This document shows, piece by piece, positions 16,234 through 35,342 of a stretch of DNA of 64,000 nt. Made by a program: the position numbers and the translations under genes. The DNA is from Planctomycetota bacterium (GTDB lineage: Bacteria > Planctomycetota > MHYJ01 > JACQXL01 > JACRIJ01). The stretch lies in the NCBI GenBank assembly GCA_016220095.1, contig JACRIJ010000104.1, forward strand, positions 1 to 64,000. The letters run 5' to 3'. The notes below the pieces were generated by a model. That model ran no database searches, was not told the origin of the DNA, and saw only the letters and a list, made by a program, of their open reading frames with translations. Numbering within the stretch: the stretch's first letter is position 1; every line of letters begins with the position of its first letter.

Positions 16234-17205
16234 ATGTTTACACAGAAATGGCTTTGGGGAATTGGGATGCTCATTCTTGTGCTCGTATTTGCCACGCCTT
16301 CATTTGCTATGGTGCATGGCGCCGGCAATCTTGTATGCTACAAATGCCATACAATGCACGATAGTATCGGCGGTGCTGATGTAGGTGCGGTAGGTCCGCA
16401 GGCGAATTTGTTGAGAGATGCCGGTACGGATCTCTGCCTGTCATGCCACAACGGTTCGTGGAATGGCGGGGAACCTAATGTGTACAACGTTGGTGTTGAC
16501 GAAGAAACGCCGGCTGGCGATTTCTACAGAGTTCGTTCAGCGGGCGGAGATTCCGGTTTGGGACACAATCCCGTCGGAACGAACATTGCCGTTGACGGAA
16601 CTTTGGCAACAGCGCCAGGCGGAACGTTTGCTTCTGCCAACCTGACATGTACGTCCTGTCACGATGCCCACGCGACAGACGCCACGAAGTTTTTCGCGTA
16701 TCGCAATCTGCTAAAGACGGTAAATACCGTGGATGTTAGTACGACAATAGGTTCAGGCAATGCGCAGGAAGCGGATGTTTATGACGAAGGCACAAACACC
16801 AATAACGCCATTTCCAACACGAATAAAAACGTGTACAGGACCGGTGCGGGACAATTTGGCGCGTGGTGCGGTACGTGTCACGGCTCATTCCACGGTGATG
16901 CATCCGATACGGATATTTATACCGGCGGTAAGTGGATCAGGCATCCTACGCATACGAACCTTACCGCAGCTATGGTGACAAATTACAATGCGGTCAATAC
17001 CAATTACATTTATACTTATCCGGTGCTTGACGGCGCAGGAACACTGACCGTTGCCGGCACAAGGGCAGTTGCCGCAACCGATAAGGTATTCTGCCTTTCA
17101 TGCCACAACGCGCATACGAGCGCCAATGCAAACGCATTGAAGTGGAATTACGTTGATCAGTCAATAGCCTCGGATACAGCTTGCAACATGTGCCACGATA
17201 AATAA
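16234..17205 (+). CDS. Secreted hexaheme-type cytochrome c (6 CXXCH)
   Basis: Signal peptide; CYKCH, CLSCH, CTSCH, CGTCH, CLSCH, CNMCH. Confidence 0.88.
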   Translation: MFTQKWLWGIGMLILVLVFATPSFAMVHGAGNLVCYKCHTMHDSIGGADVGAVGPQANLLRDAGTDLCLSCHNGSWNGGEPNVYNVGVDEETPAGDFYRVRSAGGDSGLGHNPVGTNIAVDGTLATAPGGTFASANLTCTSCHDAHATDATKFFAYRNLLKTVNTVDVSTTIGSGNAQEADVYDEGTNTNNAISNTNKNVYRTGAGQFGAWCGTCHGSFHGDASDTDIYTGGKWIRHPTHTNLTAAMVTNYNAVNTNYIYTYPVLDGAGTLTVAGTRAVAATDKVFCLSCHNAHTSANANALKWNYVDQSIASDTACNMCHDK

Positions 17206-17232
17206 CGTGCAAAAGAAAAATTTATGAATAAC

Positions 17233-17278
17233 ACAACAGCACCAAGATTGGAAAAACCTTTTGGTGCTGTTGTTTTTT
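17233..17278 (+). terminator. Rho-independent terminator
   Basis: ACAACAGCACCAA / TTGGTGCTGTTGT perfect 13-bp stem followed by a T run. Confidence 0.85.
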
Positions 17279-17336
17279 ACAGGGGTAATCCCCAAAATGG
17301 ATATTGTTCCCAAAAGCATAAACCACGCTTAAAAAC

Positions 17337-18257
17337 ATGAAAAAACTTATAAAAACAGCAGTATTATTAATTATGATGGCGGCCGTCGTATTTGCCGCCG
17401 AACGGCCCGGGGTTGTTTTCGTTCTTACAAAAGAAAAAAACAAGTTCAAGCAGTTATCCGCAATGATGGTTTTCGCAAAGGACAAGGAAATCTACTTATG
17501 CGATTCCGAGGCCCAGAACATAAGGATATTTACGTTTGACGGCGCCGAGCAGACATGGTTTTCCGTCAAAAGACCCGCAGGTGTAACGAGAGATTCCGGT
17601 GGAAACTTTTATGTCCTTGAAACGGACGATAACGGGAGTAATTTTATAGGCATATACGATAATAAATTTCAGAAAAAAAATTCCATAAAAATAACCGATT
17701 CGCCTTTTCCGCCAACCGAAAAATTCAGCCAGATTGCGATTGATAATGACGATAAGCTTTACATAACCGACGAAGGCAATAAAGTTGTCCTGACGGTGTC
17801 GGTGGATGGGAAATACCTGCGGCATTTCGGAAAATTTCCTCAGGAGGAAAACGGCAAGACACTTCCGTCGATATCGGACATATGTGTTGACGGGCAAAAC
17901 AAGAAACTCTATATTGCGGACGCAATTTCCTCTAAAATATACGTTTATAAACTAAACGGCAAATATCTTTTTGAATTCGGCAAAGGCGGCGGCATTATGG
18001 GCGAACTCAGCCAGCCCTGCAGTGTGGCCGTGGATGCCGACGAAAACGCTTACGTGCTTGACAAAATGCGTCACACCGTTATTGTTCACGACAAGGCAGG
18101 CAAATTTATTTACGAAATAGGCGGCAAGGGCGAGGCAGAGGGATGGTTTTATTTTCCGAGATATATAGCGATAGACCCCGATAAAAATCTTTATGTACTT
18201 GAGAGCATGATTAACAGGTTCCAGGCGCTGACGATTGAAAAGAAAAATGAAAAATGA
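17337..18257 (+). CDS. Secreted NHL-repeat beta-propeller protein
   Basis: Signal peptide; repeats such as QIAIDNDDKLYITDEGNKVVLTVSVDGKYLRHFG, DICVDGQNKKLYIADAISSKIYVYKLNGKYLFEFGKGG. Confidence 0.8.
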   Translation: MKKLIKTAVLLIMMAAVVFAAERPGVVFVLTKEKNKFKQLSAMMVFAKDKEIYLCDSEAQNIRIFTFDGAEQTWFSVKRPAGVTRDSGGNFYVLETDDNGSNFIGIYDNKFQKKNSIKITDSPFPPTEKFSQIAIDNDDKLYITDEGNKVVLTVSVDGKYLRHFGKFPQEENGKTLPSISDICVDGQNKKLYIADAISSKIYVYKLNGKYLFEFGKGGGIMGELSQPCSVAVDADENAYVLDKMRHTVIVHDKAGKFIYEIGGKGEAEGWFYFPRYIAIDPDKNLYVLESMINRFQALTIEKKNEK

Positions 18258-19218
18258 CTCGGGTATAGAAAAAATTATAATGGTTTTGTTGATGCAGGCT
18301 TTCTTCCTCGGAAGCATTGTTGCGGATCAGCCGCCGGATGCCGGAAAGCGTCCGGTACAAATACGGTTTTCGTATTCCATAGACGGCTACAGCCGGAACA
18401 TGCCGTTCAATTCACCCGCCGCATTCTGCCTTGACGAAAAACATAACGAACTGCTGATAGCCGATACCGGCAATAATGCGATAGGCATTTTTGCCGCGGA
18501 TACCGGCGAATACAAAGGCCGGCTTGATTCCGCCGTGCCCCTGCAGGCCCCTTGCGGCATAGCAATAGACGCTGAAGACAGTATTTACGTCGCCTGCAGT
18601 GACAGTTCCGTGATAGAGATATTTGATTTTAAAGGCACAAATCTGGGCGGCATAGACGTCTCAGGCGCCGGGCAGAAAACGCCCGTAAAGCCCGGCAAAC
18701 TTTACTGGGATGGTTTGGCGGAAGAGCTTTATGTGATTGACCGCGCCAACCAACAGGTGCTTATCTGCAAGGACAGGAAAGTCTGGCAGAAAATACAGCC
18801 GCTTTCCGCGGATGCCGCCGGCAATGCGGATTGGAAGAATGCCCCCATGTTGCAGGATATTGCCGTAGATGACTGCGGAAAAATATACGTAATCAGTTCC
18901 ATCGGCAATGCGGTTGCCGTTTTTGACCGCAATGGAAGTCCTGTAACGTCTTTCGGCAGGCACGGCGATACGGCGGATACGGTTTCTTTTCCTGTAGCTG
19001 TTTCTATTGATAAAAAAAACCGTTTATGGATAATAGATAACTTCCGCCATTGCATCACTGTATTTGACGCCCAGGGGAAATACATAACGGCCTGCGGCGC
19101 GTACGGGGCCGATCATGGAAACTTGTTTTTCCCGGTGGATATAATAGTCAAGGATGGCGCGCTGTACGTTCTTGAAAAAGGCGCGGAACGGGTGCAGGTT
19201 TTTGCGATTGTAGAGTAA
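18235..19218 (+). CDS. Secreted NHL-repeat beta-propeller protein
   Basis: Signal-like N-terminus; FCLDEKHNELLIADTGNNAIGIF, VSIDKKNRLWIIDNFRHCITVFDAQGKYITACG. Confidence 0.8.
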   Translation: MKRKMKNDSGIEKIIMVLLMQAFFLGSIVADQPPDAGKRPVQIRFSYSIDGYSRNMPFNSPAAFCLDEKHNELLIADTGNNAIGIFAADTGEYKGRLDSAVPLQAPCGIAIDAEDSIYVACSDSSVIEIFDFKGTNLGGIDVSGAGQKTPVKPGKLYWDGLAEELYVIDRANQQVLICKDRKVWQKIQPLSADAAGNADWKNAPMLQDIAVDDCGKIYVISSIGNAVAVFDRNGSPVTSFGRHGDTADTVSFPVAVSIDKKNRLWIIDNFRHCITVFDAQGKYITACGAYGADHGNLFFPVDIIVKDGALYVLEKGAERVQVFAIVE

Positions 19219-19234
19219 TTTTGTATCTGCGTGT

Positions 19235-22102
19235 ATGAATAAAAGCATTTTTTTAACAATTTCGGCAGTAGTTTTATTATTGCCCGGTGCGGCATTTGCC
19301 GGGGACTATCACCGTGTGTGGGCGACTTCTACCCTGGTTTGTTCCGATTGCCATACCCTGCACGCGGGTTCCGTGCCGTATCCGGTACTGCTCAAATACG
19401 CTACGGTAAACGAACTCTGCGCGTCCTGCCATGACGGTACGGATACGAAGGCGCCCGATGTAATATCACCGGTGACAATGTACACGGGTGATGAACATTC
19501 CGGGGCCGGATTTTTTGCAAATACCGGAGGTTCCGCGAGCGATGTCGCGCACGACCTCGGCGTGTCGGCCGCAATTCCCATGAGTACCAAGCCGGCGATG
19601 ACCCTGATATGCACTACATGCCACGATCCTCACGGGAACGGTTATTACAGAAATCTTAAGCCTGATCCGGACGGAGATACAAGCAATATAACCGTTACCA
19701 TAGGCACAAATATGTTTCAGCAGAATTCACCTCCGATACCGCCGAATGCGGCAACTGTCGCCGATGCATATAAGGAGTCAAATATCGGATATAAATCCAA
19801 CATCTCTGCATGGTGCAGTCAATGCCATGATAAACTTGCCTCTAATCAGGCAGGCACTCTCCCTTCGCATTTCAAAAGGCATCCCGCAGATGTTCCGCTT
19901 AATTCTGCCGGATATCATGCGGATACGGCCAACTGGATTACAAATCCGCTTGGAAATCCGACAAGCGGCGGCGGCGTTGCAACGGGCGATGCGGTATACG
20001 GAATTCCACGGCTTAGATACCAGGTAAGTACCGCGACGGACTATGCGAGCGCTAAAACAGTTGCCGTTTCCAATCAGGTATTCTGCGGATCGTGCCATAC
20101 GGCGCACGGTATGAAATACCAGAAAAACCTCGTTTGGCCGTACAGGAAACAGACAGGAATTGACAATACCGATGCCTTTGCCGCATGTCAGCAGTGTCAT
20201 AACCAGTCATATTGGAGTGGTTCTCCGCACGGAAACACCACAACCGGCGTGGCGCGTACTTCTTCCAATCCCACAGGGGCATGCAACCAGTGCCATGATA
20301 TGCACGATGATGTTACATCTTACAATTACGCGCTTTATACGACAAATACAAATTCATTGTGCTTTACAACAGGTTGTCATGTAAATGCCTCTGCCAGCTA
20401 CCCCGCGCAGGAGGCGGATCGTAATGCCGTGGGATACTTTACGACAAAACGCTGGCCTGGCCAGACTTCTTATGAAAACGCCACGTACTCTCAACACTAT
20501 CTGGACGCGGACTGTATTTATCCCGGCAAAAGCTATTCTGCCGGCGATTGTAAGAATTGCCACGACCCTCACGGTTCAGCCAATACCTATGATATGACCC
20601 TGAATACATATATAGACGGCGGCGTTTATACGAATTATCAGCTATGTTTTGATTGCCATAACGAAACTACCGGGCCTGCGGGCATGAACATTGCCGGGAA
20701 ATATGTAAAAAACCTGTATAGCATCGCGGATAACCAATCTGGGCATCAGATACGTAATTCCGCAAAATCAGTTTCAAATTTTGCAGGTTCCAAACTTGCC
20801 ATTGGCGATAAACTGCCCTGCTACGACTGTCACGGGCCCCACGGTTCAAAAGGCAATAACGGCACCCAGCCGAACAAGAAAATTCTGAGTGATCAGCGCA
20901 CAGGATGGTCAAATCTTGATACGGCTGTCGCCGCGAATAACCGTACGTTCTGCCTTGGTTGCCACGTCGCGTCCAACGGGGTAGCCGGTTCAAATACCGT
21001 GGAAGGCATAGCCATGAATACCATACCGGTATTTCCGTCAACCGGATTCCAGCCGCACGCAACAACGGGCACAGATTCATGCAGTGACTGCCATGGCGAT
21101 AATTACACGAACAACACGGCGCGAAATGCCCATCATCCGGATAATTCGGATTGTAAATTCTGTCATAATGCCGCGCAGGGCTCGCACAGGCAGGTAGTGC
21201 AGAACGGCGGTACGGGCGGCGATTTTGACGATACTACGCATCATATCGGGGATGTTGTGGGCACGGAAAATGTTACGAATGCCGACTGTGTCATGTGCCA
21301 TAAGCAAAGCAATCATCCATATACAACGGATGCCACGACAATCTACCTGAGAAACGTTGATACCGGTGCGGCAATTACTTACGTAAGGGGAGACACCTCT
21401 TCGGCAAACCTGACGAATCTTGACAATTTTTGTCTTGCATGTCATGACGCTGCCGGCGCTAATGGCGACACTACACCATTTTCGGATAATGCCGTTGCTC
21501 TGGATGTAAATGCTCAATTTAACACGGCAAATCCATCCCATCACGCCGTTAAAGGCGCAAGATATACGCCGGCCGGCGCATCCGGTATTCTCGCAGCCGC
21601 GTTTGTTAACGGCTGGGCCGACAATAGCACCCTTCACTGCAGTGATTGCCATTGCACGGCAACTAATGCGCACGGAGACGGCAAGGCTGTTGCAAGCAGG
21701 CCGTCTTTGATTAAAGGGTACACGTCGGGAACGGTCTATCCCGGCGGCACTGCCGGCGTTGACGGGTACATCTGTTTTTTATGCCATGGTTACCTTACGT
21801 ATGATACGCCTAATATAACGACACCGAATAATTCCAGGTTTGACCATAACGCGAATGGCGGACATGCTACAAAGGATGTTTACAGGGGAATCTATTGTCT
21901 TGTATGCCACGGTGGATATGTTAAGGGTTATATACATGGAGAAAACGATACATCGGATATAAATATAATGCAACATTTTCTGTCCGGCGCGGCTTTGCGC
22001 AGTTGGCAGAGATCCGGGGCAAATGAAAGCTGTAATACGACAGGCAGTATATCGGCATGTTCCCAGCATAACGGGGGCAAAACGTACGGTTATAATTACT
22101 AA
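19235..22102 (+). CDS. Large secreted multiheme cytochrome c (18 CXXCH + 1 CX4CH)
   Basis: Signal peptide ending AAFAG; motifs counted in translation from CSDCH to CLVCH; CFTTGCH at 20360-20380. Confidence 0.9.
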   Translation: MNKSIFLTISAVVLLLPGAAFAGDYHRVWATSTLVCSDCHTLHAGSVPYPVLLKYATVNELCASCHDGTDTKAPDVISPVTMYTGDEHSGAGFFANTGGSASDVAHDLGVSAAIPMSTKPAMTLICTTCHDPHGNGYYRNLKPDPDGDTSNITVTIGTNMFQQNSPPIPPNAATVADAYKESNIGYKSNISAWCSQCHDKLASNQAGTLPSHFKRHPADVPLNSAGYHADTANWITNPLGNPTSGGGVATGDAVYGIPRLRYQVSTATDYASAKTVAVSNQVFCGSCHTAHGMKYQKNLVWPYRKQTGIDNTDAFAACQQCHNQSYWSGSPHGNTTTGVARTSSNPTGACNQCHDMHDDVTSYNYALYTTNTNSLCFTTGCHVNASASYPAQEADRNAVGYFTTKRWPGQTSYENATYSQHYLDADCIYPGKSYSAGDCKNCHDPHGSANTYDMTLNTYIDGGVYTNYQLCFDCHNETTGPAGMNIAGKYVKNLYSIADNQSGHQIRNSAKSVSNFAGSKLAIGDKLPCYDCHGPHGSKGNNGTQPNKKILSDQRTGWSNLDTAVAANNRTFCLGCHVASNGVAGSNTVEGIAMNTIPVFPSTGFQPHATTGTDSCSDCHGDNYTNNTARNAHHPDNSDCKFCHNAAQGSHRQVVQNGGTGGDFDDTTHHIGDVVGTENVTNADCVMCHKQSNHPYTTDATTIYLRNVDTGAAITYVRGDTSSANLTNLDNFCLACHDAAGANGDTTPFSDNAVALDVNAQFNTANPSHHAVKGARYTPAGASGILAAAFVNGWADNSTLHCSDCHCTATNAHGDGKAVASRPSLIKGYTSGTVYPGGTAGVDGYICFLCHGYLTYDTPNITTPNNSRFDHNANGGHATKDVYRGIYCLVCHGGYVKGYIHGENDTSDINIMQHFLSGAALRSWQRSGANESCNTTGSISACSQHNGGKTYGYNY

Positions 22103-22105
22103 ATA

Positions 22106-23101
22106 ATGTTTTCGAAAATAATAAATAAACTCGCAATAATAATATTAATTGCCATCGCGGTGTTTCTGACAGTATTTGTGCTTTCTCCGCAGTGTTCCTT
22201 TGCGCCGTATTTTACGGGAGAAAAAATACGCCGGTGGTTTTTCATCGTGCTTGTTGCCGCTCTTTATATCGTTCTTACATTTTGTACGGTAGACCGTATA
22301 TGGCGGCAGGTCAGGAGCAAATATAACAGCCCTTCCTGGTGGGGATCCATAATTTTTCATGCGAGTTTTTATGTAATAGTAACAGGCGCATGCATCAGTA
22401 TAGGCGGAAGAAAAACAGGCCTGGAACTTTTTACGGAGAGCGAAACCGTAATTTTTTCAGAAAACAATTATCTTTTGCATGACCGGCCGCCTTTCGCAGT
22501 AAAATTGAACAGGTTTTTGCCCGTATTTGAAAACGACATGCCGGTTGATTACGCCTGCGATTTTTCAGTTTATTACGATACGGCAGAAGGATGGATGCAG
22601 GCAAGGAAGTCCGGCTTGAAGGTCAACATGCCCCTTGAAGAACAAGGGGTGTCTTTGGTGTTTAAGCGCTGGGGCTATTCCCCGAGGATTATAATTCGGG
22701 ACAATGAATACAACGAAATTATCGGCATGTTTAACCTTAATCTCGGCGAAAAAATTGAGAACGGGAATCCGCAAAAATTTTTTACCGATTTCACCAGCGT
22801 GCCAAATACCAATTTGAAATTGGAATTAAAATTTTATCCGGAAATGGAGAATGGGAAACATGTGCCCGCGTATACGGCGAGAAACCCCCGCATATACGCG
22901 AAATTGTATTCCGGCAAACGGGTTTATGTTGATGGTTATATTGCAATGAAAGAATCGCTTGTTTCCGATACGCTGACCCTTACATTTGACGATTTTAATT
23001 ACTGGGTCGGCGTTGAGGTTGTCAACGACATCGGAGAAAACATTGTCTTTGCCGGTTTTGTAATTGCCGTAATAGGATTGGCATTTAGAATGCTTTTTTG
23101 A
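22106..23101 (+). CDS. ResB/Ccs1-like cytochrome c biogenesis protein
   Basis: Multiple TM, large periplasmic domain; immediately upstream of CcsA-like gene. Confidence 0.7.
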   Translation: MFSKIINKLAIIILIAIAVFLTVFVLSPQCSFAPYFTGEKIRRWFFIVLVAALYIVLTFCTVDRIWRQVRSKYNSPSWWGSIIFHASFYVIVTGACISIGGRKTGLELFTESETVIFSENNYLLHDRPPFAVKLNRFLPVFENDMPVDYACDFSVYYDTAEGWMQARKSGLKVNMPLEEQGVSLVFKRWGYSPRIIIRDNEYNEIIGMFNLNLGEKIENGNPQKFFTDFTSVPNTNLKLELKFYPEMENGKHVPAYTARNPRIYAKLYSGKRVYVDGYIAMKESLVSDTLTLTFDDFNYWVGVEVVNDIGENIVFAGFVIAVIGLAFRMLF

Positions 23102-23108
23102 ACCAAAC

Positions 23109-23147
23109 ATTGAACTTAATTGAACCGGATTGAACAACGTTGAACAA
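23109..23147. repeat. Short tandem ATTGAAC-type repeats
   Basis: ATTGAACTTAATTGAACCGGATTGAACAACGTTGAAC. Confidence 0.7.
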
Positions 23148-23156
23148 TTTTAATAT

Positions 23157-23981
23157 ATGACAAACTTGGAATTAATATTATTAAAAATTACAATAGGTCT
23201 TTACCTGGTAAGTAGCCTGTGGCTGGCTGGCGGTTTTATTTTTAACCGTGAAAAATTAAGAAAATTTTTTGCATTGCCGGTATTAATCGCCCTTGCGGCG
23301 CATACGGCGGTGATTATTGTGCGCTGGAGCGCCACGGGCCACGGCCCGGTGATGAAGGACTATGAAAACGCCCTGCTTGGCGCCTGGTTGACGGTGGCTT
23401 TATATTTACTGTTGGTATTCAAATGGCGCGAAATGGCCGTTATAGGCATAGTTATAGCCCCGCTCGCCATGCTCCTGCTCGGGTACGCGTTTATGACGGA
23501 ACCAGTCCTGGAGCGGCTTTCGCCGGGGTATAAATCCTTTTGGCTTTACGTGCACGTATTTACCGCATGGCTTGCGTTCGGCGCTTATGCGATCGCGTCC
23601 GGATTTGCAGTTGCGTTTTTTATGCGCGGTCATTATGACAAAAAATCCGTACAAACGAAAATTCCAGAGTTGTCTGAACTTGATTTGACCGCGTTTCGCA
23701 TAGTCCTTTTCGGATTTATACTGCACGCAATAATGATAGCCGCGGGTTCCATTTGGGCGGCAAAATTGTGGGGGAGCTACTGGTCGTGGGACCCGATAGA
23801 AACATGGTCGCTGATATCCTGGCTTTGCTACGGGATAATAATCCATTTGCGATTGGCCTTTGCCTGGAAAAATCAGAGGTTTGCCGTGATGATAATGCTG
23901 GCGCTTGTGACGGTTATAATAGCCTGGTTAGGAATAAACTGGATACCGTCAAGCGACCATGTATTCAGCAAGTTGGAATGA
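23157..23981 (+). CDS. ccsA: CcsA/ResC-type cytochrome c assembly protein
   Basis: WWD-like signature WAAKLWGSYWSWDPIETWSLISWLCYG; multiple TM segments. Confidence 0.9.
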   Translation: MTNLELILLKITIGLYLVSSLWLAGGFIFNREKLRKFFALPVLIALAAHTAVIIVRWSATGHGPVMKDYENALLGAWLTVALYLLLVFKWREMAVIGIVIAPLAMLLLGYAFMTEPVLERLSPGYKSFWLYVHVFTAWLAFGAYAIASGFAVAFFMRGHYDKKSVQTKIPELSELDLTAFRIVLFGFILHAIMIAAGSIWAAKLWGSYWSWDPIETWSLISWLCYGIIIHLRLAFAWKNQRFAVMIMLALVTVIIAWLGINWIPSSDHVFSKLE

Positions 23982-24025
23982 TTACGGATTCTAAGATTGA
24001 AAGATTTTGAGATTGGAAGATTATT
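23981..24025. repeat. GATTCTAAGATT-type repeat
   Basis: GATTACGGATTCTAAGATTGAAAGATTTTGAGATTGGAAGATT. Confidence 0.7.
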
Positions 24026-24029
24026 GAGA

Positions 24030-25514: not shown

Positions 25515-27994
25515 TGTTCATGCTTAAAAAACTAATGAAATACGCAGACTATTTTTTGTTGACAATATACGCAGTATTATTCATCGCATCTGCGGAAACC
25601 GTTTTTGCCGATGGCGATCTTTACGGTTCCATCAGCACGCGTTTTGCGGAAAACAAGGTCGCTGACGACATTACGTCCAGACTGTTTAATACGCTGAGTT
25701 TCGGATACCAGGATTCTGTATTGGACAATATCGCCGTGCAGTTTAACGGAAATATGACTTACAGCGACGATGACCAGAAAAAATATGAAGATTTTATCCC
25801 GTGGTTCGGGCTTTCCCTGTCCAGAGACAATATCGCGTGTTCGGTAAATTACAGCGATTACGAAAACAAAAACTATAAGAACGCTTCGGGCATACTGTCA
25901 ACATCCGTGCTTAGTACCGGCCTGAATTTTTCGCCGCAGGACCTTCCTTCAATCGGACTTAGTTATTCCGTGCGCCAAAGTGAAGATGACCTTTCGCCCA
26001 AGACAGCGGATAATAAAATCGCAACCTATACGATGAATACCAATTACCATTTAGGAATTTTTTACGCGTTTTACAACCGCAATAATAACAAATATACCAA
26101 CAAAATCTCCGGATTTTTAACGATAACGCTTTCTTCCGGAATTTCTTATATTGCCACAGACGTATTGTCCGCGGTTTTTGTATCGGACACGGCTAATAAC
26201 AGGATAGTTAAATATTCAAATGACGGAACATATATAAGTTCTATAGGCAATGGAGGCACTGCCTCCGCCGAATTCAATTCGCCAAAGGGCATATGCCTGG
26301 ATCCGCAGGGAAATCTTTACGTGATAGACTCCCTGAACAGCCGCGTGCAGAAGTTTGATAACGAAGGCAATTTTATACTGAAATGGGGCGATGCCGGTAC
26401 AGGCAATGGCGAATTCAATACGCCATCGGGCATAGCTTCCGATGGCGTCGCTGTGTATGTAACGGATGCCGGCAACAATCGTGTGCAGAAATTTGACCTG
26501 AACGGGGTTTTTGTAGCCATGTGGGGAAGCACAGGTTCTTCCGCTGGGGAATTCATAGGTCCGCAGGGTATCGCGGCGTATGGCTCTTCCGTGTATGTCG
26601 TTGACACAAATAATCATCGTGTGCAGAAATTCAGCGTTGACGGGAGTTTTCAACTTCAGTGGGGAAGCTCGGGAAACAATATAGGCGAATTTTTTATGCC
26701 GTCAGGAATAGCAGTGGATTCGGCCGGGTTCGCTTATGTTACGGATTCGGCAAACAACAGGGTGCAGAAATTCACAGGTACAGGTGGATTCGTGTCCCAA
26801 TGGGGTTCGTATGGCGACCAGGACGGGCAGTTTGCTACGCCGTTTGGCATAGCAGCTGATCAGGGAAACAATATTTACATTACGGATCAAAATAATACCA
26901 GAATTGAAAAATTTTCATCTAACGGTATATTCCTGTATTCATGGGGCAAGGTGTATATTCCCAACGCGGCGCAAAGGACTGAAAACGTTCAGGATTCTTA
27001 CGGCGTTGGATTTTCCTACCAGCCGTGGAATTTTATGAATATCAGCGTAAATACGAATTTCAATTCGTCAGAATCTTTTAAGAATCAGGAAGTTACGGGA
27101 AAAGCTTTTCAGGAATCATATACCGTAATTTTGTCAATCAAGCCGGTTTCACCGGTAAATATATCATATTCATTTACAAGCCAGCGTTTACGCAATGAAA
27201 GCCAGTCCGGCCTGGAAACACAGCAGACTGACATAAACAGTACGCTTTCAGCAACGCTTGCTTTGCACAGGAATTTATCGCTGTCGTCCGGTTACGCGGT
27301 ACAATCTGTTTTCGGCGACGGGCTTGAGGATGTTGACAGCACAACATGGCGCATAGGCATGCTTACACAGCCGTTTTCAAAACTTTTGGCAACCGTTAAT
27401 TATTCTAATATTGTTGCCGAAAACAACGGCGAAAAAGTGTCGGATTCAGACAGCTTAGGGTTGTCCACGCAATGGAAAATGATGTCCAAGACCAGTTTAA
27501 ACCTTGATTATTATTACAATTTTAATTATAATATACTTACAAACCAGGCATCGGTATCCAGGTTGATGAAAGCGGAATGGTTTGCTTCACCGGTGGAGAA
27601 CTTCGTATGGAATCTCCGGTATGAAAAGAATATGGCCGAAAGCGAAGCAGGCAATGCCGGCGCCGATGCTTACAACACATATATATATTACATGCTATCG
27701 GGTGAAACTTCTGCAGGCGCGAATTTCGGATACAGGACAAATGAAAACCCGGCAGGCGATGCGGCAAGGTCTTTTTCGCAGACTTATACTTTTGAAAAGC
27801 GTATATCGGAAATAACGGATTTTTTTCTGTCATTTATAGCTGAATCAGGGACTTATTCCAGCCAGGTCATAAGCCCGAGGATAATGTTCAGGATTACCGA
27901 TACCACGGCGCTTTCGTTGAATTCGCAAAAATTCCTGAAGGGGCCGTCGGAAGGCGATTATACGATGTCCATGGAATTATCCATTAGATTTTAA
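25511..27994 (+). CDS. Putative outer-membrane beta-barrel protein with internal six-repeat NHL propeller
   Basis: Signal peptide; NHL units DTANNRIVKY, DSLNSRVQKF, DAGNNRVQKF, DTNNHRVQKF, DSANNRVQKF, DQNNTRIEKF; amphipathic strand-rich flanks; C-terminal phenylalanine (SMELSIRF). Confidence 0.72.
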   Translation: MMFMLKKLMKYADYFLLTIYAVLFIASAETVFADGDLYGSISTRFAENKVADDITSRLFNTLSFGYQDSVLDNIAVQFNGNMTYSDDDQKKYEDFIPWFGLSLSRDNIACSVNYSDYENKNYKNASGILSTSVLSTGLNFSPQDLPSIGLSYSVRQSEDDLSPKTADNKIATYTMNTNYHLGIFYAFYNRNNNKYTNKISGFLTITLSSGISYIATDVLSAVFVSDTANNRIVKYSNDGTYISSIGNGGTASAEFNSPKGICLDPQGNLYVIDSLNSRVQKFDNEGNFILKWGDAGTGNGEFNTPSGIASDGVAVYVTDAGNNRVQKFDLNGVFVAMWGSTGSSAGEFIGPQGIAAYGSSVYVVDTNNHRVQKFSVDGSFQLQWGSSGNNIGEFFMPSGIAVDSAGFAYVTDSANNRVQKFTGTGGFVSQWGSYGDQDGQFATPFGIAADQGNNIYITDQNNTRIEKFSSNGIFLYSWGKVYIPNAAQRTENVQDSYGVGFSYQPWNFMNISVNTNFNSSESFKNQEVTGKAFQESYTVILSIKPVSPVNISYSFTSQRLRNESQSGLETQQTDINSTLSATLALHRNLSLSSGYAVQSVFGDGLEDVDSTTWRIGMLTQPFSKLLATVNYSNIVAENNGEKVSDSDSLGLSTQWKMMSKTSLNLDYYYNFNYNILTNQASVSRLMKAEWFASPVENFVWNLRYEKNMAESEAGNAGADAYNTYIYYMLSGETSAGANFGYRTNENPAGDAARSFSQTYTFEKRISEITDFFLSFIAESGTYSSQVISPRIMFRITDTTALSLNSQKFLKGPSEGDYTMSMELSIRF

Positions 27995-27999
27995 GGAGT

Positions 28000-28584
28000 A
28001 TGCTGATGATAAGAAATTATTTGCAAGGCGCTATAAAACAGGCAATGATTATACCGTTCCTGGTCATATTGATTGGTTGCAGCAGTGTTTCAAATTCAGC
28101 CTATCTTCATCCTGAATTTGATATGGCCGCAGTACGCAAGGTTGCCGTTGTTACATTTGCAAATTATTCCAAAGAACCCATGGCCGGCGAAAAAGTGACC
28201 AATATGTTTTTTACCCAGCTTCTCAGCACAGGGCTTTTTGACGTGTCGGAACCGGCAAGGACCGAGGAGATCATTAAGAAACACAAAAACGGCTCTGGTA
28301 TTGATTTGCTTGTCATGCAGAAAATGAAGGAATCATTGAATATCCAGGCAGTTTTTATGGGATCTGTGGATGAATATTCTTTTGCCTCCTTCGGCAGTAA
28401 AACCTATCCGCTTGTCACAATTTCCGCCCGGCTCGTGGATTGCGAAACAGGCACGATACTTTGGACGTCTACAATTACAGGTGACGGATCATCGTCCGTT
28501 CCGGTGCTGAATATTGGCGCGATAAAAACACTGCCGGAACTTGCACAGGCACTGTGTGTCAGGATTGTGAGCACTATAAAATAA
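28000..28584 (+). CDS. Small lipoprotein, CsgG/LpoB-like fold suspected
   Basis: Lipobox LIGC; VRKVAVVTFANYSKEPMAGEKVTNMFFTQLLSTGLFDVSEPARTEEI pattern. Confidence 0.6.
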   Translation: MLMIRNYLQGAIKQAMIIPFLVILIGCSSVSNSAYLHPEFDMAAVRKVAVVTFANYSKEPMAGEKVTNMFFTQLLSTGLFDVSEPARTEEIIKKHKNGSGIDLLVMQKMKESLNIQAVFMGSVDEYSFASFGSKTYPLVTISARLVDCETGTILWTSTITGDGSSSVPVLNIGAIKTLPELAQALCVRIVSTIK

Positions 28585-28594
28585 GGGATAAAAC

Positions 28595-29353
28595 ATGAAA
28601 AAAAAATATCTGTTATTTTTGCTTTTTAATGCCGTTCTGTTTGCGCCGGGCGGATGTAGAACATCCAATGTAGTTTCTTCCGCTTCACAGCCTGCGGAAA
28701 TAGACGCTTTTTACGTCAGAAGGATTGCCGTTGTGCCGTTTGACAACCTTACCGGTCTTCCGAACGATGCAGGCAGAAAAATTACAAATACACTCGTGGC
28801 GGATGTTTATTCCCGGAATGCGTTTGAACTTCTTAACAGCGGTGAATTGGAAGGCTTTCTTACGGATGAAAGGATACGCTATTCTTCCGATTTTACCATG
28901 CAGAAAACACAGAAACTCCTTTCCAAATACAATGTGCATGCCGTGCTTCTCGGCAGTATCAATGAATATTCCTACGCAAGCGCGGGTACGGAACAGCTTC
29001 CGGTAATAAGCATTTCCGCAAGGATGCTTGATACGCGTACGGCAAAAATAATATGGGCGTACAATGTAACTGCCGAAGCGCGCGAAACGGCATTCGGATT
29101 GGGTTCTATAAGAAGCCTCGCTAATTTGACAGAACTTGCGATTAATGATATAGTTGACAGTTTAATTGCGGCAAAATCCGAAACCGCCTTATCCGGCAGT
29201 CAGGGTGCGGATGCCGTGCAAACGGATAGGAGTACGCCTGAAAATCCAAATGTGCAATCGTCCATAATAATTATAGATGAAAGTGAAAAAAATTATACCA
29301 GGGAAAAATCCAAAGAATATTGGTATAAAATAGTCAAAGACTACAAAAAATAG
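28595..29353 (+). CDS. Small lipoprotein paralogous to preceding gene (CsgG/LpoB-like fold suspected)
   Basis: Lipobox-like PGGC; VRRIAVVPFDNLTGLPNDAGRKITNTLVADVYSRNAFELLNSGELEGFL; LLGSINEYSYAS matches FMGSVDEYSFAS. Confidence 0.6.
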   Translation: MKKKYLLFLLFNAVLFAPGGCRTSNVVSSASQPAEIDAFYVRRIAVVPFDNLTGLPNDAGRKITNTLVADVYSRNAFELLNSGELEGFLTDERIRYSSDFTMQKTQKLLSKYNVHAVLLGSINEYSYASAGTEQLPVISISARMLDTRTAKIIWAYNVTAEARETAFGLGSIRSLANLTELAINDIVDSLIAAKSETALSGSQGADAVQTDRSTPENPNVQSSIIIIDESEKNYTREKSKEYWYKIVKDYKK

Positions 29354-29362
29354 CATTATAGA

Positions 29363-31051
29363 ATGAGAAAAAATACTATGAAAAAAACAATTCCTCTTTT
29401 GATAACTGCCATGCTTGCGGTAACAGTAATGGCGTTGCTTTCGTCTCCATCGCCTGCGCAGATTGGCAAATCCTGTCTTGACTGTCATAAGGATATCAGC
29501 CTTCTTTTAAGCGAAAAAAACGTGCACCCCCCGTTCAATGTGAATTCCTGTGATTCCTGCCATGATACTACCACGCATGGTCAGATGGTGGAAAACGGCC
29601 CCGCATTGTGTCTGACCTGTCACGATGGGATAAAAAAAGAAACCGGTTCGCACTTTCCGCATTCGCCCGCAGAAAGCAACTGCCTGTCCTGCCATAATCC
29701 GCACGCATCGGCGAATTCCAAGCTTCTCATCAAACCTCAGGACCTGCTGTGCACTTCCTGTCATGACGGCATTACGAAAAAATTAGCCGAAAAACACCTG
29801 CATGAGCCGTTTAAATCAAAAGATTGCCTGTCATGCCATAAACCCCACGGCAGTGATACGCCGCATTTGCTTACGGAAAAAACGCCCGGTTTGTGCACGC
29901 AATGCCATGACACATCCGATAAAACCATTGCGTCTGCGCATAAAGATATTTCTATAAAAAATTCAAATTGTCCAGTCTGTCATAATCCGCACTCTTCTTC
30001 GGAGCCGAAGCTGATAGAAAAAAACCAGCACTATCCTTTTGAAACCGGCAATTGCGCTTCCTGCCATAAACAGAATGCGGACAGAATAGAACTTATTATG
30101 CCTGCGGATAAACTTTGCCGTACGTGTCACGGCAAAATCGGCAACGAACCGGAAAAAACATATCATCATTCGCCTGCGGAAAGCGGTGAATGCCTGTCCT
30201 GTCACAATCCGCACGCAACGTCCAGGAAAAAACTTCTTAATGATGAAATTAACCCCGTATGTTTCTCCTGCCATTCTGACAAGCAGGAGCTTCTTGGCAA
30301 AGAAATCGTGCATCAGCCGTTTAAAAACGATTGCACGGCCTGCCACAGTCCGCATTCGTCGGCGCTTGCCGGACTGATAAAAAAGAACGCGGTAGACCTG
30401 TGCGGTACATGCCACGCGAATCTGCCGCTGGAATTCGCAAAAAAAACCGTGCATTTTCCGTTTAAAAACGGTTCCTGCATGTCCTGTCACAATCCCCATG
30501 CGTCATCAACGAACGGACTTCTCAAAAAAAACCAAAAGGAATTGTGCCTTGAATGCCATCTTGATATAAAAGCCAAGCTTGTGGCAAAACGGACGCATTC
30601 CGGCACAGGCGGAGATTGCACCGATTGCCATTTGCCACATAGTACGGAAACAGAATCTTTGCTTAATATTGATAAGGAATTGTCCTGTTTTTCCTGCCAT
30701 CCGAAAGAGGATTTTACTGACAAAAAATACCAGCATTTTCCCGTTATGAAAAACAAATGCCTTACATGTCACGATCCGCATGGAACGGATTTCAAGGCAA
30801 ACCTGAAAAAATCGGTAAATGATACCTGTACCCAATGCCATCCCGCACGGCATAAGGAATTCGTGCACTCCGTGGACGCATTGCCGTCCGAAAAAATTGA
30901 TATGTCAGCCGAGGATAAAACCCGGCTTGACGCGGAGGGAAGGCTTTCATGCGTCTCCTGCCATAGTCCGCACGGTTCCAGGAACCCGTTTTTCCTTATT
31001 GACGAAATGACGCAAGGACAGCTCTGTTACAGGTGCCACAAACAAAACTGA
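29363..31051 (+). CDS. Secreted multiheme cytochrome c (22 CXXCH), doubled-CXXCH repeat type
   Basis: 22 CXXCH counted; repeated C..CHNPHAS...LC..CH...H.PF..G.C unit. Confidence 0.92.
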   Translation: MRKNTMKKTIPLLITAMLAVTVMALLSSPSPAQIGKSCLDCHKDISLLLSEKNVHPPFNVNSCDSCHDTTTHGQMVENGPALCLTCHDGIKKETGSHFPHSPAESNCLSCHNPHASANSKLLIKPQDLLCTSCHDGITKKLAEKHLHEPFKSKDCLSCHKPHGSDTPHLLTEKTPGLCTQCHDTSDKTIASAHKDISIKNSNCPVCHNPHSSSEPKLIEKNQHYPFETGNCASCHKQNADRIELIMPADKLCRTCHGKIGNEPEKTYHHSPAESGECLSCHNPHATSRKKLLNDEINPVCFSCHSDKQELLGKEIVHQPFKNDCTACHSPHSSALAGLIKKNAVDLCGTCHANLPLEFAKKTVHFPFKNGSCMSCHNPHASSTNGLLKKNQKELCLECHLDIKAKLVAKRTHSGTGGDCTDCHLPHSTETESLLNIDKELSCFSCHPKEDFTDKKYQHFPVMKNKCLTCHDPHGTDFKANLKKSVNDTCTQCHPARHKEFVHSVDALPSEKIDMSAEDKTRLDAEGRLSCVSCHSPHGSRNPFFLIDEMTQGQLCYRCHKQN

Positions 31052-31056
31052 ATATT

Positions 31057-31506
31057 ATGAAAAAAAATATTAAAATCATTACATTATTGGCGGCAATTAT
31101 CATTGCGATTGCCGCGGCTTTTTTTGCATTCGTGTTTGATAAGCCGGTTTCCTATAAGAACGGGGTTAAATCCGTTTCCATAACTGTAAAACACGAAATG
31201 TATAAGAATTTTTCGGAATCTCACACACTTAAGCCTGGAGAGCAGGTTTATATTCATGATACGAATTATGTTTTTGTTATTACGGATTTTATGCCTGATT
31301 TCAGGATAAAAAGGCAGACTGGTGAAGCGTATTCCAGAACCGATGCGCCCGATAATCCCGCCGTAAAAATCGCGCTCTATGTTGAAAATGAAAAATTGGA
31401 TGAAGCCTGGTATATCCTGAAAAAAAAGGATTATTATAAGGTATTTAAACCCGGCATTTATTTCGTTATAGATAATATCGTTTACGGAGACACCAAGTAT
31501 GAATAG
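31057..31506 (+). CDS. Membrane-anchored small protein with ResB-like periplasmic domain (suspected)
   Basis: One N-terminal TM; FVITDFMPDFRIKRQTGEAYSRTDAPDNPAVKIALY resembles ResB periplasmic segment. Confidence 0.45.
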   Translation: MKKNIKIITLLAAIIIAIAAAFFAFVFDKPVSYKNGVKSVSITVKHEMYKNFSESHTLKPGEQVYIHDTNYVFVITDFMPDFRIKRQTGEAYSRTDAPDNPAVKIALYVENEKLDEAWYILKKKDYYKVFKPGIYFVIDNIVYGDTKYE

Positions 31507-33454
31507 AAAAAGACTCTTTATTTTTACAGTTCTTACGGCCTTTCTCTGCGCGGCATTTCTGCAATCGTGCCAGAACGGCACCAGGCCTGCGCCGAAAAAG
31601 AAAACATGCATGGAATGCCACGCGCATGAGAATATGCAGGATTTGATGAATAAAAAAGTTGTCCATGCGCCGTTCAAATCCCAGGATTGCGAATCTTGCC
31701 ATGAAAGGCATTTATTCGGCGACAAATTGAAATTGAAACATTGGGACAGTAAGCTGTGTGCAAATAGCGAATGCCACGCCGATTATGCCTCTGATGCCAA
31801 GAAAGCGGTTTCCGAGGCGGTACATCCGCCTTACGCTAACTCGCCCTGCTGGCAGTGCCACTCTCCGCATGCCTCGGATTATCCGAAACTGTTGAAGGCG
31901 AAATCGCCCGACATGTGTTACGAGTGTCATGATAGAAGTGCGTATTCCGCGCAAAACGCGCATACGCCGGTTAAAGAAGGCAAATGCCTGTCATGTCATG
32001 CCGCCCATGAGTCTAATAACAAAGGGCTTCTTCAAAAACCTGTAAACCAGATATGCGCCGATTGCCATGATACGGGCACGGACAAAATGAAAACTGCGCA
32101 TAATAACTTTAATATTTCCAAAAGCGCTTGCTCTTCCTGCCATACGCCGCATTCGTCCGCACAAAAAGCCCTGTTAAAAAATACCGTTCACGCGTTTATT
32201 TTGGATAAAAACTGCGTTTCATGCCATGCGGATCCTTTGGCGCCGGAAAAACTGGTTAAACCCGTTAAAGAACTCTGTCTGTCCTGCCATGATAAACAAA
32301 CAAATGAACTTTCGGATAAACATATACATAAGCCGTTCATTGACGATGATTGCCTGAAATGCCACGCCGCACATGCTTCGCAGACGGAAAAACTCCTTAT
32401 TCTGCCCGTAAGCTCACTTTGTATTTCATGCCATAAACAGGAAACTACGCCCGATATGGCACAGCATAAGCCGTATATGTCCGGAGATTGTTTGTCATGC
32501 CACAAGGCTCATTCAAGCGGCCAGTCGAAACTTGTGAAAGATAATCTTGAGCAAAACTGCGTCTCATGTCACGCATCCGTGACGGAAGAGCGGAAAAAAT
32601 CCCATGTGCATAGTCCGTTTGGCGGGGATTCATGCCTTCAATGCCATAGTCCGCACCAGTCAAAATATAAATTCATATTAAAACAGGAACCTGGCAAATT
32701 ATGTGCCGAATGCCACGAGGAAACCGTTGCGGGTGGCAGGAAAGAGACTTATCAGCATACGCCTTTTTATAATCAGAATTGTTTTACCTGTCATTCCGGC
32801 CATGCCGCGGATTATAAGGCTTTGCTTGTTAAAAAGGAAAAAGAATTATGCATGGATTGCCATAAGAACAGTGCGTCTGAACTTATGGCGTCTTATCAGC
32901 ATACGCCGGTTAAAAATGGCGAATGCTCGTCCTGTCACAATCCGCATAGTTCCAATATAAAAAACTATCTGAAAAAATATAAAGAGGCATTATGTTTCGA
33001 TTGCCATCCGAAAATTACCGAAGAGCTTAAACAGTCCTCCAGGCACCAGCCCGCATTGCAGGGAGACTGCATAAAATGCCATTCTCCGCATGGTTCCGAA
33101 ATCGAAAATCAGCTCCGGCGCGCGGATATGGGGTTGTGCACCCAGTGCCATCCCAACGTCGCAAAAGAGCTCCAAAAGAAATTTCCTCACCAGCCCGTGA
33201 AGGACGAAGAATGCCTTGAATGCCATTCTCCGCATGCATCAGCGCATGAAGCCCTTATGTCAGAGCCGGCCCCGGAACTTTGCCTGAAATGCCATAAACC
33301 GGACGCGGTTTTTACCGCCGCGCACAGGAATTTTGACGTGAAAAAGACAGACTGCCTGCAGTGCCATACGCCACACGCCGCGGACCAGAAAGGCCTGCCG
33401 CTGTCCCATCTGCATAAGCCGTATAAGGACGGGGATTGCTCGGAGTGCCACTGA
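31499..33454 (+). CDS. Multiheme cytochrome c lipoprotein (25 CXXCH + 1 CX4CH)
   Basis: Lipobox-like LQSC; motifs counted; CANSECH at 31757-31777; ends CSECH-stop. Confidence 0.92.
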   Translation: MNRKRLFIFTVLTAFLCAAFLQSCQNGTRPAPKKKTCMECHAHENMQDLMNKKVVHAPFKSQDCESCHERHLFGDKLKLKHWDSKLCANSECHADYASDAKKAVSEAVHPPYANSPCWQCHSPHASDYPKLLKAKSPDMCYECHDRSAYSAQNAHTPVKEGKCLSCHAAHESNNKGLLQKPVNQICADCHDTGTDKMKTAHNNFNISKSACSSCHTPHSSAQKALLKNTVHAFILDKNCVSCHADPLAPEKLVKPVKELCLSCHDKQTNELSDKHIHKPFIDDDCLKCHAAHASQTEKLLILPVSSLCISCHKQETTPDMAQHKPYMSGDCLSCHKAHSSGQSKLVKDNLEQNCVSCHASVTEERKKSHVHSPFGGDSCLQCHSPHQSKYKFILKQEPGKLCAECHEETVAGGRKETYQHTPFYNQNCFTCHSGHAADYKALLVKKEKELCMDCHKNSASELMASYQHTPVKNGECSSCHNPHSSNIKNYLKKYKEALCFDCHPKITEELKQSSRHQPALQGDCIKCHSPHGSEIENQLRRADMGLCTQCHPNVAKELQKKFPHQPVKDEECLECHSPHASAHEALMSEPAPELCLKCHKPDAVFTAAHRNFDVKKTDCLQCHTPHAADQKGLPLSHLHKPYKDGDCSECH

Positions 33455-33499
33455 ACGAATTTGAGATTTCAAATTTGAGATTCGTTATAAGGAGTTTAT

Positions 33500-34774
33500 A
33501 TGAAAAAAATCGCAATTGTTTCAGTATTGCTCGGTTCAACAGCAATGCTGATAGGCATTTCGCTCGCGCAGGAGGCGAAGCCTAAAGACAATATCGCTGA
33601 AATCTGCTACGGGTGCCATAAGGAACTCAGGGAATCCTTCGCCGGTAAAACTATGCACAAGCCGGTGGAAAAAGGGAATTGCACTGCCTGCCATAATCCG
33701 CACGCGTCCAAAGCCGAACATCTTATGAAGAAAACCGAATCCAAAACATGCCTTGCGCAGGAATGTCACGCAGGACAAAAGGAACTTTTTGGCCGCGCCT
33801 TTCAGCATACGCCGGTTAAAAACGGTCAATGTTCTCCATGTCACGAACCGCACGCGTCTAAAGAAAAACACATGCTGAAAAAGGCGTCCATGGAAATATG
33901 TGCCGATTGCCACAATATTAAAAAAATGGCTGGAGACAAGACGGTCCTGCACGGACCTTTCAGGGATGGTCAGTGCCTCGCCTGCCATGACGCGCATTCG
34001 GGGAATTATTCCGGAAACATAATAAAAAAGAACGTGGATATCTGCACCGCATGCCACGCGGCAAACGACAAATTAAAAGAAAAACACGACCAGTTTGATA
34101 TGTCTGCCGTGGACTGTACGATATGCCATTCACCGCATTATAGCGGTTATCAAAACATGCTCAAAGCGGTCGTGCACAAGCCGGTTGGCGAGAAGGCATG
34201 CGATAAATGCCATGAGAACCTGACAGGCAATAAACCTGACCCGAAAAAACTTGTTAAACCAGTGCCCGATTTGTGCTTTGAATGCCATGATAAAAAGAGC
34301 CATTCCGCTTCCAATGTGCATAAGCCTGACCAGGACGGCAATTGTCTTACATGCCACGAAGTGCACGCGTCTGATTTCAAACACTTGCTTAACCAGCGTA
34401 CGCCGGATTTGTGTTTCAAATGCCACAAGGGAATGGAAAGGTTCGTAAAGATGCAGTATCCGCATAATCCGGTGATGAATGGCGAATGCAATGCCTGTCA
34501 TTCGGCGCATTCGTCGGAAAACAAGAAACTTCTTGTTGATATGGACTATACAAAAATGTGTATGGCTTGCCACAAAAAGCGTGACACGCACCCCGTGGAC
34601 AAGATCGCGTCAAACACCATAGAAACATTTGAAAATTCACTGGTTAAACTTGATGCCAATCGTAAAGTGGTCTGCATCTCCTGCCATAATCCGCACGGGA
34701 GTGACGAGGAAAACATTCTGCACTACAACAAGGAAAGGGATTTGTGCATACAATGCCATAAGAAGGAACGTTAA
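33500..34774 (+). CDS. Secreted multiheme cytochrome c (15 CXXCH + 1 CX4CH)
   Basis: Signal peptide; motifs counted; CLAQECH at 33749-33769. Confidence 0.92.
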   Translation: MKKIAIVSVLLGSTAMLIGISLAQEAKPKDNIAEICYGCHKELRESFAGKTMHKPVEKGNCTACHNPHASKAEHLMKKTESKTCLAQECHAGQKELFGRAFQHTPVKNGQCSPCHEPHASKEKHMLKKASMEICADCHNIKKMAGDKTVLHGPFRDGQCLACHDAHSGNYSGNIIKKNVDICTACHAANDKLKEKHDQFDMSAVDCTICHSPHYSGYQNMLKAVVHKPVGEKACDKCHENLTGNKPDPKKLVKPVPDLCFECHDKKSHSASNVHKPDQDGNCLTCHEVHASDFKHLLNQRTPDLCFKCHKGMERFVKMQYPHNPVMNGECNACHSAHSSENKKLLVDMDYTKMCMACHKKRDTHPVDKIASNTIETFENSLVKLDANRKVVCISCHNPHGSDEENILHYNKERDLCIQCHKKER

Positions 34775-34821
34775 AAACCCGCTTGCTTTTTCCTGTTTTT
34801 TCTTATACACTCTGTATAATT

Positions 34822-35169
34822 ATGGCAATACCGTTACTGCTGGTCATAAATAATTTCCTCCACGATTTTTCTGCCGCCATGCTGTTATGTTCGGCAATAT
34901 GCATCTGGCTGGTAAGGCGGAACTTCCACGGCGATGCAGGCGGCGTATCATCAGTTATTGCGCGAAATATTACAAGCAAACTGTCCCTGATATTCTATTT
35001 GTCGCTTGGGTTTGTCGTTATCGGAGGTGCGATTCGCGCCTGGGCGTATCGTACTTATGAATGGATTACGCCCCTGGGACAGTCGCAGGTTACGGTACTT
35101 ATAGTTAAACACGCTCTTTTTGCCGCGTGTTTGCTTGTCGCGGTTTATATAGTGTTGAAAAAAAAATAA
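34822..35169 (+). CDS. Small integral membrane protein (about 3-4 TM)
   Basis: Hydrophobic profile; internal ATG 34822 preferred but start uncertain. Confidence 0.5.
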   Translation: MAIPLLLVINNFLHDFSAAMLLCSAICIWLVRRNFHGDAGGVSSVIARNITSKLSLIFYLSLGFVVIGGAIRAWAYRTYEWITPLGQSQVTVLIVKHALFAACLLVAVYIVLKKK

Positions 35170-35342
35170 GGAAAAGTTTGAGTTGCAATTTACCCCGCTT
35201 TACTGAACCATTATGTATTAGCGTGAAAGAGGAGATGAGTGATTCTTGGTGAAATAATCGGCTTCTTGATATTTACAACAGTTTTCTTAGCTGTAACTTC
35301 GTGTCTTCGGGCCTTCGTGGCAATAAATAGTTGTTGTTTTGC

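Follow-up and report, generated by a model that had tools for sequence, protein, structure and literature searches.

How might a bacterium pass electrons through large multiheme cytochromes and across its outer membrane, and why would the genes for such a path stand beside an enzyme that resembles a porphyrin cyclase? These questions are raised by a gene cluster at positions 16234-35169 of a 64,000-nucleotide stretch of contig JACRIJ010000104.1 (the window is this whole stretch) from G000, a metagenome-assembled genome of Planctomycetota (GCA_016220095.1; 3.59 Mb, 132 contigs, 91% complete). An earlier reading of the letters alone, here the sequence-only reading, had seen a candidate extracellular electron transfer (EET) system of five multiheme cytochromes around an NHL-bearing outer-membrane barrel, with cytochrome maturation genes and a B12-binding radical S-adenosylmethionine (SAM) gene as accessories. 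We propose that the cluster encodes both an outer-membrane conduit and a dedicated line for assembling its cytochromes, including an enzyme that would act on heme or a porphyrin, and we give this combined reading an even chance.

Multiheme cytochromes related to MtrA

Every gene listed in Table 1 lies on the + strand, as a check of open reading frames (ORFs) confirmed. Since most junctions are overlaps or gaps below 60 nt (3-55 nt; the sole larger gap, 131 nt, follows mhc1), the genes are likely co-transcribed in an operon-like arrangement. The five cytochrome ORFs hold 6, 18, 22, 25, and 15 CXXCH motifs, and three of them hold one CX4CH motif each, giving 89 predicted hemes; this recount agrees with the 86 CXXCH and 3 CX4CH motifs on one strand given by the sequence-only reading. 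Shuffling the residues of the same proteins yielded means of 0.02-0.4 motifs and at most 3, so the real counts are far above chance. Pfam searches also recovered the NHL proteins, ResB/CcsA, B12 radical SAM enzyme, and two lipoproteins of that reading; PF01436 is above cut-off in 17337-18257, 18235-19218, and 25511-27994.

Heme motifs in mhc3, mhc4, and mhc5 recur once per ~24 residues with little scatter; mhc1 and mhc2, with irregular spacing, are of a different type. Both mhc3 and mhc4 exceed the cut-off of 192 for TIGR03508 (DmsE/MtrA), and their closest solved relative is 6R2Q chain A (scores in Table 1). 6R2Q is the MtrCAB complex of Shewanella baltica, in which MtrA, with 10 hemes, lies inside a 26-strand barrel (PMC7198977). 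The PDB table names chain A 'Cystathionine beta-synthase', at odds with that paper; from the chain length and the match, we read it as MtrA. A lipobox is present in mhc4, whose stop codon directly follows the last CXXCH (33430-33454), as it does in the homologue from a second planctomycete, G012. The other four cytochromes appear soluble. For surface decahemes of the OmcA/MtrC family, TIGR03507 gave 35-52 bits with mhc2, mhc3, and mhc4, against a cut-off of 209.

An inner-membrane protein with nine hemes and a cytochrome b561 domain is encoded elsewhere in G000, on contig C42. The stretch around it (G000:C42:1442-14000, L109) also encodes a Rieske protein, a cytochrome b C-terminal domain, a NapC-like 16-heme protein, and more multiheme proteins. 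We presume that the 9-heme/b561 protein resembles Geobacter CbcL, and, with its Rieske and cytochrome b neighbors, it is a possible inner-membrane partner of the cluster. Other cytochromes of G000 include an adjacent multiheme pair with 10 and 13 CXXCH motifs (G000:C81:56810-58991, L108:8811-10992) and, on contig C89 (L110:7449-12404), a triheme lipoprotein-like cytochrome that adjoins a large Tat-signal molybdopterin oxidoreductase.

G012 belongs to the same class as G000 and to a different family. It carries, in order, genes for the three-helix protein, the radical SAM enzyme, the NHL-barrel protein, lp1, lp2, mhc3, ResB, CcsA, the ResB domain, mhc4, and mhc5; an mhc1 homologue (41% identical) and an NHL gene lie on the opposite strand, and another ResB/CcsA pair lies upstream. 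The sequence-only reading had staked its proposal on linkage in related genomes, and in G012 the genes are linked. Because mhc3 and mhc4 score above the DmsE/MtrA threshold, an MtrCAB chain is their nearest solved relative, mhc4 is a 26-heme lipoprotein, a 9-heme/b561 protein is encoded elsewhere, and G012 has the same gene set, an EET conduit is the best reading of the cluster and a probable one, in line with what had been proposed.

The 827-aa NHL protein

The NHL repeats of 25511-27994 exceed the Pfam cut-off, and AlphaFold models residues near 260-430 with a confidence score (pLDDT) of ~90. The N-terminal flanks of this protein and its G012 counterpart are homologous (E 6e-13); homology between their C-terminal flanks was not detectable. 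The conduit half of the cluster, marked by this gene, is rare, with G012 the one other genome found: a profile of the N-terminal flank matched one of 295 G012 relatives, G012 itself, and BLAST of the protein in 150 relatives of G000 returned G012, the remaining matches covering the NHL part only. An MtrB/PioB homologue was considered and excluded: Pfam searches were negative, PF11854 (MtrB_PioB) has no match in G000 or G012, and profile alignment was negative as well (Discussion). The NHL domains also give a score with ScyF, a protein of scytonemin synthesis, which may reflect no more than that both are NHL proteins.

A BchE-like enzyme beside a second cytochrome c synthase

The adjoining ResB and CcsA genes, the latter with the WWD heme segment, point to a System II CcsBA synthase in which a Lys of that segment is changed to Ile. 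G000 has two CcsA genes: the copy on contig C74, beside an ordinary ResB, reads WDPKE and the cluster copy reads WDPIE. G012 likewise has an unlinked CcsA with WDPKE plus a linked one of the altered type, and every CcsA we read that is linked to the radical SAM gene has I, V, or L at the Lys position. The altered motif fits a dedicated heme handler; it is not proof of one. Two membrane-associated proteins, both beyond the sequence-only reading, complete the set. A profile (A3) of the solitary domain at 31033-31506 finds matches within ResB proteins of ~620 aa from this phylum (best E 4e-7); strong matches are confined to G000 and G012 among 393 phylum members. The CopD-like three-helix protein at 34783-35169 is conserved and neighbors the radical SAM gene in other genomes; a fold search with it gave no match below E 0.001.

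What kind of radical SAM enzyme is encoded here? The sequence-only reading had recognized B12 binding, and the enzyme can now be placed, on its scores and shared residues, in a BchE-like subfamily. Its TIGR02026 score of 408 bits is below the BchE equivalog cut-off of 481, and the next B12 family scores 127. Across the family TIGR02026 gives 377-440 bits and other B12 radical SAM models at most 168, whereas true BchE scores 816. The clade and four true BchE proteins have 94 invariant positions in common, and 15 of these, part of them in the N-terminal YHxGxxExAGxWP motif, occur in none of four other B12 radical SAM proteins. In a tree, the enzyme groups with BchE and apart from other B12 radical SAM proteins; true BchE falls inside this radiation by long branches, so its exact placement is unsure. 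BchH (TIGR02025) has no match in G000 (91% complete), and a control search finds it in Synechococcus. Because the genome is without BchH, a Mg-porphyrin ester is an unlikely substrate; the enzyme would most likely act on heme or a porphyrin precursor, with an apocytochrome less likely.

Conservation of the assembly genes

Are the maturation genes mere accessories, as they had first been taken to be? Comparison with other genomes argues otherwise: the maturation module is the widely conserved part of the cluster and the NHL-barrel half the rare part. Orthologues of the radical SAM enzyme at 58-63% identity occur in Planctomycetota, Aminicenantes, Desulfobacterales, and Desulfuromonadales, and others at 42-51% in Thermincola, Actinomycetota, Frackibacter, and elsewhere. 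The gene family is present in 59 of 194 Desulfuromonadia genomes, with several copies in some, in 5 of the 143 Aminicenantes-class genomes searched, and, at a looser cut-off, in 6 of 393 Planctomycetota, four of them with strong matches (G000, G012, G162, and, more distantly, G141). Its tree mixes phyla, placing Planctomycetota beside Desulfobacterales, a pattern suggestive of horizontal transfer.

Orthologues in five phyla adjoin CcsA, usually ResB, the CopD-like membrane protein, and NHL and multiheme genes, with NHL, multiheme cytochrome, ResB, CcsA, and three-helix protein as the typical order upstream; homologues of mhc2 stand ahead of ResB-CcsA in other phyla. Of the 17 loci outside the Geobacter type that hold both genes, 15 have CcsA no more than 1.5 kb from the BchE-like gene, and in most of the 17 the three-helix gene touches the BchE-like gene or is within 1.1 kb. 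None of these neighbors stands alongside four true bchE genes, two of which were read with just 0.5 kb flanks. In 17 Desulfuromonadia stretches, hand-picked and thus supporting no rate, the gene often has as neighbors either a group made up of the three-helix protein, CcsA, another B12 radical SAM gene, and a LuxE-like gene, or large multiheme cytochromes.

Other arrangements were also seen. In Geobacter-type loci (L155-L172, Desulfuromonadia) the order is ResB, CcsA, lipoprotein, second B12 radical SAM, LuxE-like, three-helix protein, and BchE-like enzyme, and some Desulfuromonadia genomes have up to four BchE-like genes, at times in tandem ahead of cytochromes with 20 or more hemes. In L062, L063, and L065 the BchE-like gene is near a divergent three-helix protein, and the stretch has neither CcsA nor a cytochrome; because both genes are present there, the two may form a core pair. 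A different conduit-like set (L111:11870-14502, L055:16214-18846, and L047:556-2492) includes a lipoprotein-like cytochrome that has five hemes and an FFxDGVP motif and in L111 and L055 adjoins a Phe-ending protein of 650-690 aa without a Pfam match; the two Phe-ending proteins, from different phyla, are homologues (E 9e-17).

Discussion

How might the parts work together? Electrons would pass from quinol to an inner-membrane multiheme/b561 protein encoded elsewhere, and from it to soluble mhc3 and/or mhc5. They would then enter an MtrA-like wire, which the NHL-barrel protein and the lipoproteins would keep in place at the outer membrane, and reach an extracellular acceptor by way of the 26-heme lipoprotein mhc4 and mhc1/mhc2, or travel in reverse from a donor; the direction of flow is not readable from sequence. 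Assembly would use the second ResB/CcsA pair with its altered heme-handling motif, the extra ResB domain, the CopD-like membrane protein, and the BchE-like enzyme, which would act before ligation, on heme or a porphyrin precursor or, less likely, on the apocytochrome.

Several findings weigh against this proposal. The flanks of the 827-aa protein are beta-rich, but their pLDDT is below 50 and the alignment holds two sequences only; hhalign to MtrB homologues gave a probability below 1%, and no homology was found to barrels of related clusters. In a simple purpose-made scan for amphipathic strands, compared with shuffled sequences, the protein has 21 against 12 (reached by 0 of 200 shuffles), but its G012 homologue has 11 against 11. 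On the assembly side, Val is the norm at the altered Lys position throughout Geobacter-type loci, and the change may therefore be a lineage habit instead of the mark of a modified heme. No CcsA was found in the stretch read for eight BchE-like genes (L062, L063, L065, L112, L155, L163, L167, and L168). The sequence-only reading had suggested that the NHL protein may fill the barrel role: its signal-like N-terminus, terminal Phe, and propeller hold up, and the barrel was not confirmed. Because of the low-confidence flanks, mixed strand scan, and lack of relationship to MtrB, we call the protein a candidate barrel, a role that is plausible.

The BchE-like enzyme of an otherwise ordinary conduit could instead modify a peptide, be it the apocytochrome or a different one, perhaps by C-methylation, with no tetrapyrrole involved. 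Cytochrome genes adjoin the enzyme, and B12 radical SAM enzymes are chiefly tied to methylation (PMC13142503); some act on proteins. However, the scores indicate BchE alone, the 15 positions shared with BchE recur in none of the other B12 enzymes compared, and just B12-binding and radical SAM domains were detected; we put this alternative at roughly one chance in four. Less probable, and in our view unlikely, is a secretion apparatus in which the NHL-beta protein and the two CsgG-like lipoproteins export large cytochromes as extracellular filaments or surface layers, with no barrel wire. Both lp1 and lp2 are above the CsgG cut-off, and extracellular cytochromes adjoin NHL genes in other clusters (PMC10734462, PMC9769857), but the match covers part of the CsgG model, the proteins are short (194 and 252 aa) and also match GNA1162, LpoB, or TolB-N, so that they may share only a common domain, and mhc3 and mhc4 are of MtrA type. 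Equally unlikely is a periplasmic electron store or wire, with the 827-aa protein as a beta-rich scaffold and no outer-membrane crossing, which would suit the soluble cytochromes and the poorly modeled flanks without barrel homology but not the lipoprotein mhc4, the C-terminal Phe, the MtrA relationship, or the conserved gene set.

The conduit with its assembly line, which we prefer, resembles known systems in part. Like MtrCAB, PioAB, and DmsEF, the cluster combines wire cytochromes of the MtrA/DmsE family, a lipoprotein cytochrome, and a single candidate barrel gene in one operon; unlike them, it has 22 and 26 hemes in place of 10, no MtrB homologue, an NHL propeller in its barrel candidate, and its own CcsBA and BchE-like enzyme. 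For Verrucomicrobia, too, novel porin-cytochrome clusters have been suggested (PMC5615132). Several multiheme cytochromes and NHL proteins are found together, as here, in the Uet (undecaheme electron transfer) cluster of Tenderiales and Gallionella, which includes the porin UetC (PMC10734462), and in the DFE_0448-0463 clusters of D. ferrophilus (PMC9769857). Compared by the papers' descriptions, both have NHL proteins and porin on separate genes whereas our cluster has one candidate NHL-barrel gene, and the heme counts of Uet (undecaheme UetJ and tetraheme UetA, with NHL proteins UetHI) differ from ours. BchE, the anaerobic Mg-protoporphyrin monomethyl ester cyclase, shares with the cluster enzyme its two domains, CxxxCxxC, the N-terminal motif, and 35-40% identity; the cluster enzyme differs in its score below the equivalog cut-off, its separate clade, a genome without BchH, and linkage to a cytochrome c synthase. 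That synthase has the families and WWD segment of System II but is a second copy beside cytochromes, with an altered motif, a short ResB, and a free ResB domain. A second CcsBA is likewise kept by anammox bacteria, whose WWD motif in that copy is altered in a different way (PMC4222556). In the open-licence literature found, most of it judged by title, abstract, or term counts, we found no description of the BchE-like/CcsBA pairing, of an NHL-barrel fusion, or of MtrA-type proteins with 22 to 26 hemes sharing an operon with such a fusion, an absence that is weak evidence.

If the conduit reading is true, MtrB is dispensable for building an outer-membrane conduit, and the wires can have 22 to 26 hemes. 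We think it possible, though rather doubtful, that the heme is chemically altered. Just as tentatively, the BchE-like enzyme, its CopD-like partner, and the dedicated CcsBA might make an altered heme c and install it in multiheme cytochromes of several phyla, including many Desulfuromonadia. If the enzyme does act on heme, the multiheme cytochromes of electroactive bacteria would hold a cofactor for which we found no report of a search, and a modified heme could tune potentials along the wires.

Features of the cluster and neighboring genes

Table 1. Genes of the cluster, with positions in the window
Gene or product	Position	Strand	Assignment and evidence
mhc1	16234..17205	+	6-heme c-type cytochrome, signal peptide, soluble; 6 CXXCH; Paired_CXXCH above cut-off
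nhl1	17337..18257	+	Secreted NHL beta-propeller; PF01436 58 bits
nhl2	18235..19218	+	Secreted NHL beta-propeller; PF01436 61 bits
mhc2	19235..22102	+	955-aa cytochrome; 18 CXXCH, 1 CX4CH
ResB (CcsB), short form	22106..23101	+	Cytochrome c synthase subunit; PF05140 58.9 bits
CcsA	23157..23981	+	Altered WWD motif WGSYWSWDPIETWS; PF01578 131 bits and motif reading
BchE-like B12-binding radical SAM enzyme	23997..25514	+	TIGR02026 408 bits, E 7e-122; tree; shared N-terminal motif
827-aa NHL protein	25511..27994	+	Candidate outer-membrane barrel; NHL propeller at ~residues 210-480 between two beta-rich flanks; C-terminal Phe
lp1	28000..28584	+	CsgG/GNA1162-like lipoprotein, lipobox Cys; PF03783 30.6 bits, PF05643 27.5 bits, both above cut-off
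lp2	28595..29353	+	CsgG-like lipoprotein, lipobox Cys; PF03783 27.8 bits; homologue in G012
mhc3	29363..31051	+	22-heme soluble MtrA/DmsE-like cytochrome; TIGR03508 251 bits; 6R2Q chain A, E 6e-18
Solitary ResB-type periplasmic domain	31033..31506	+	N-terminal anchor; profile match within longer ResB proteins
mhc4	31499..33454	+	26-heme lipoprotein cytochrome; 25 CXXCH, 1 CX4CH; TIGR03508 280 bits; 6R2Q chain A, E 5e-20
mhc5	33500..34774	+	16-heme soluble cytochrome; 15 CXXCH, 1 CX4CH
Three-helix membrane protein	34783..35169	+	Invariant His27 and His110; weakly CopD-like

A UbiA prenyltransferase gene lies directly downstream (35331-36041). We rejected it as a member of the system: tblastn found none in related loci, and it is nearest to EboC, at 144 bits against a cut-off of 250. 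Upstream of the cluster, 9435-13775 encodes a 1446-aa secreted FG-GAP protein, and a similar-looking fragment lies at the end of the contig (L043:2-541).

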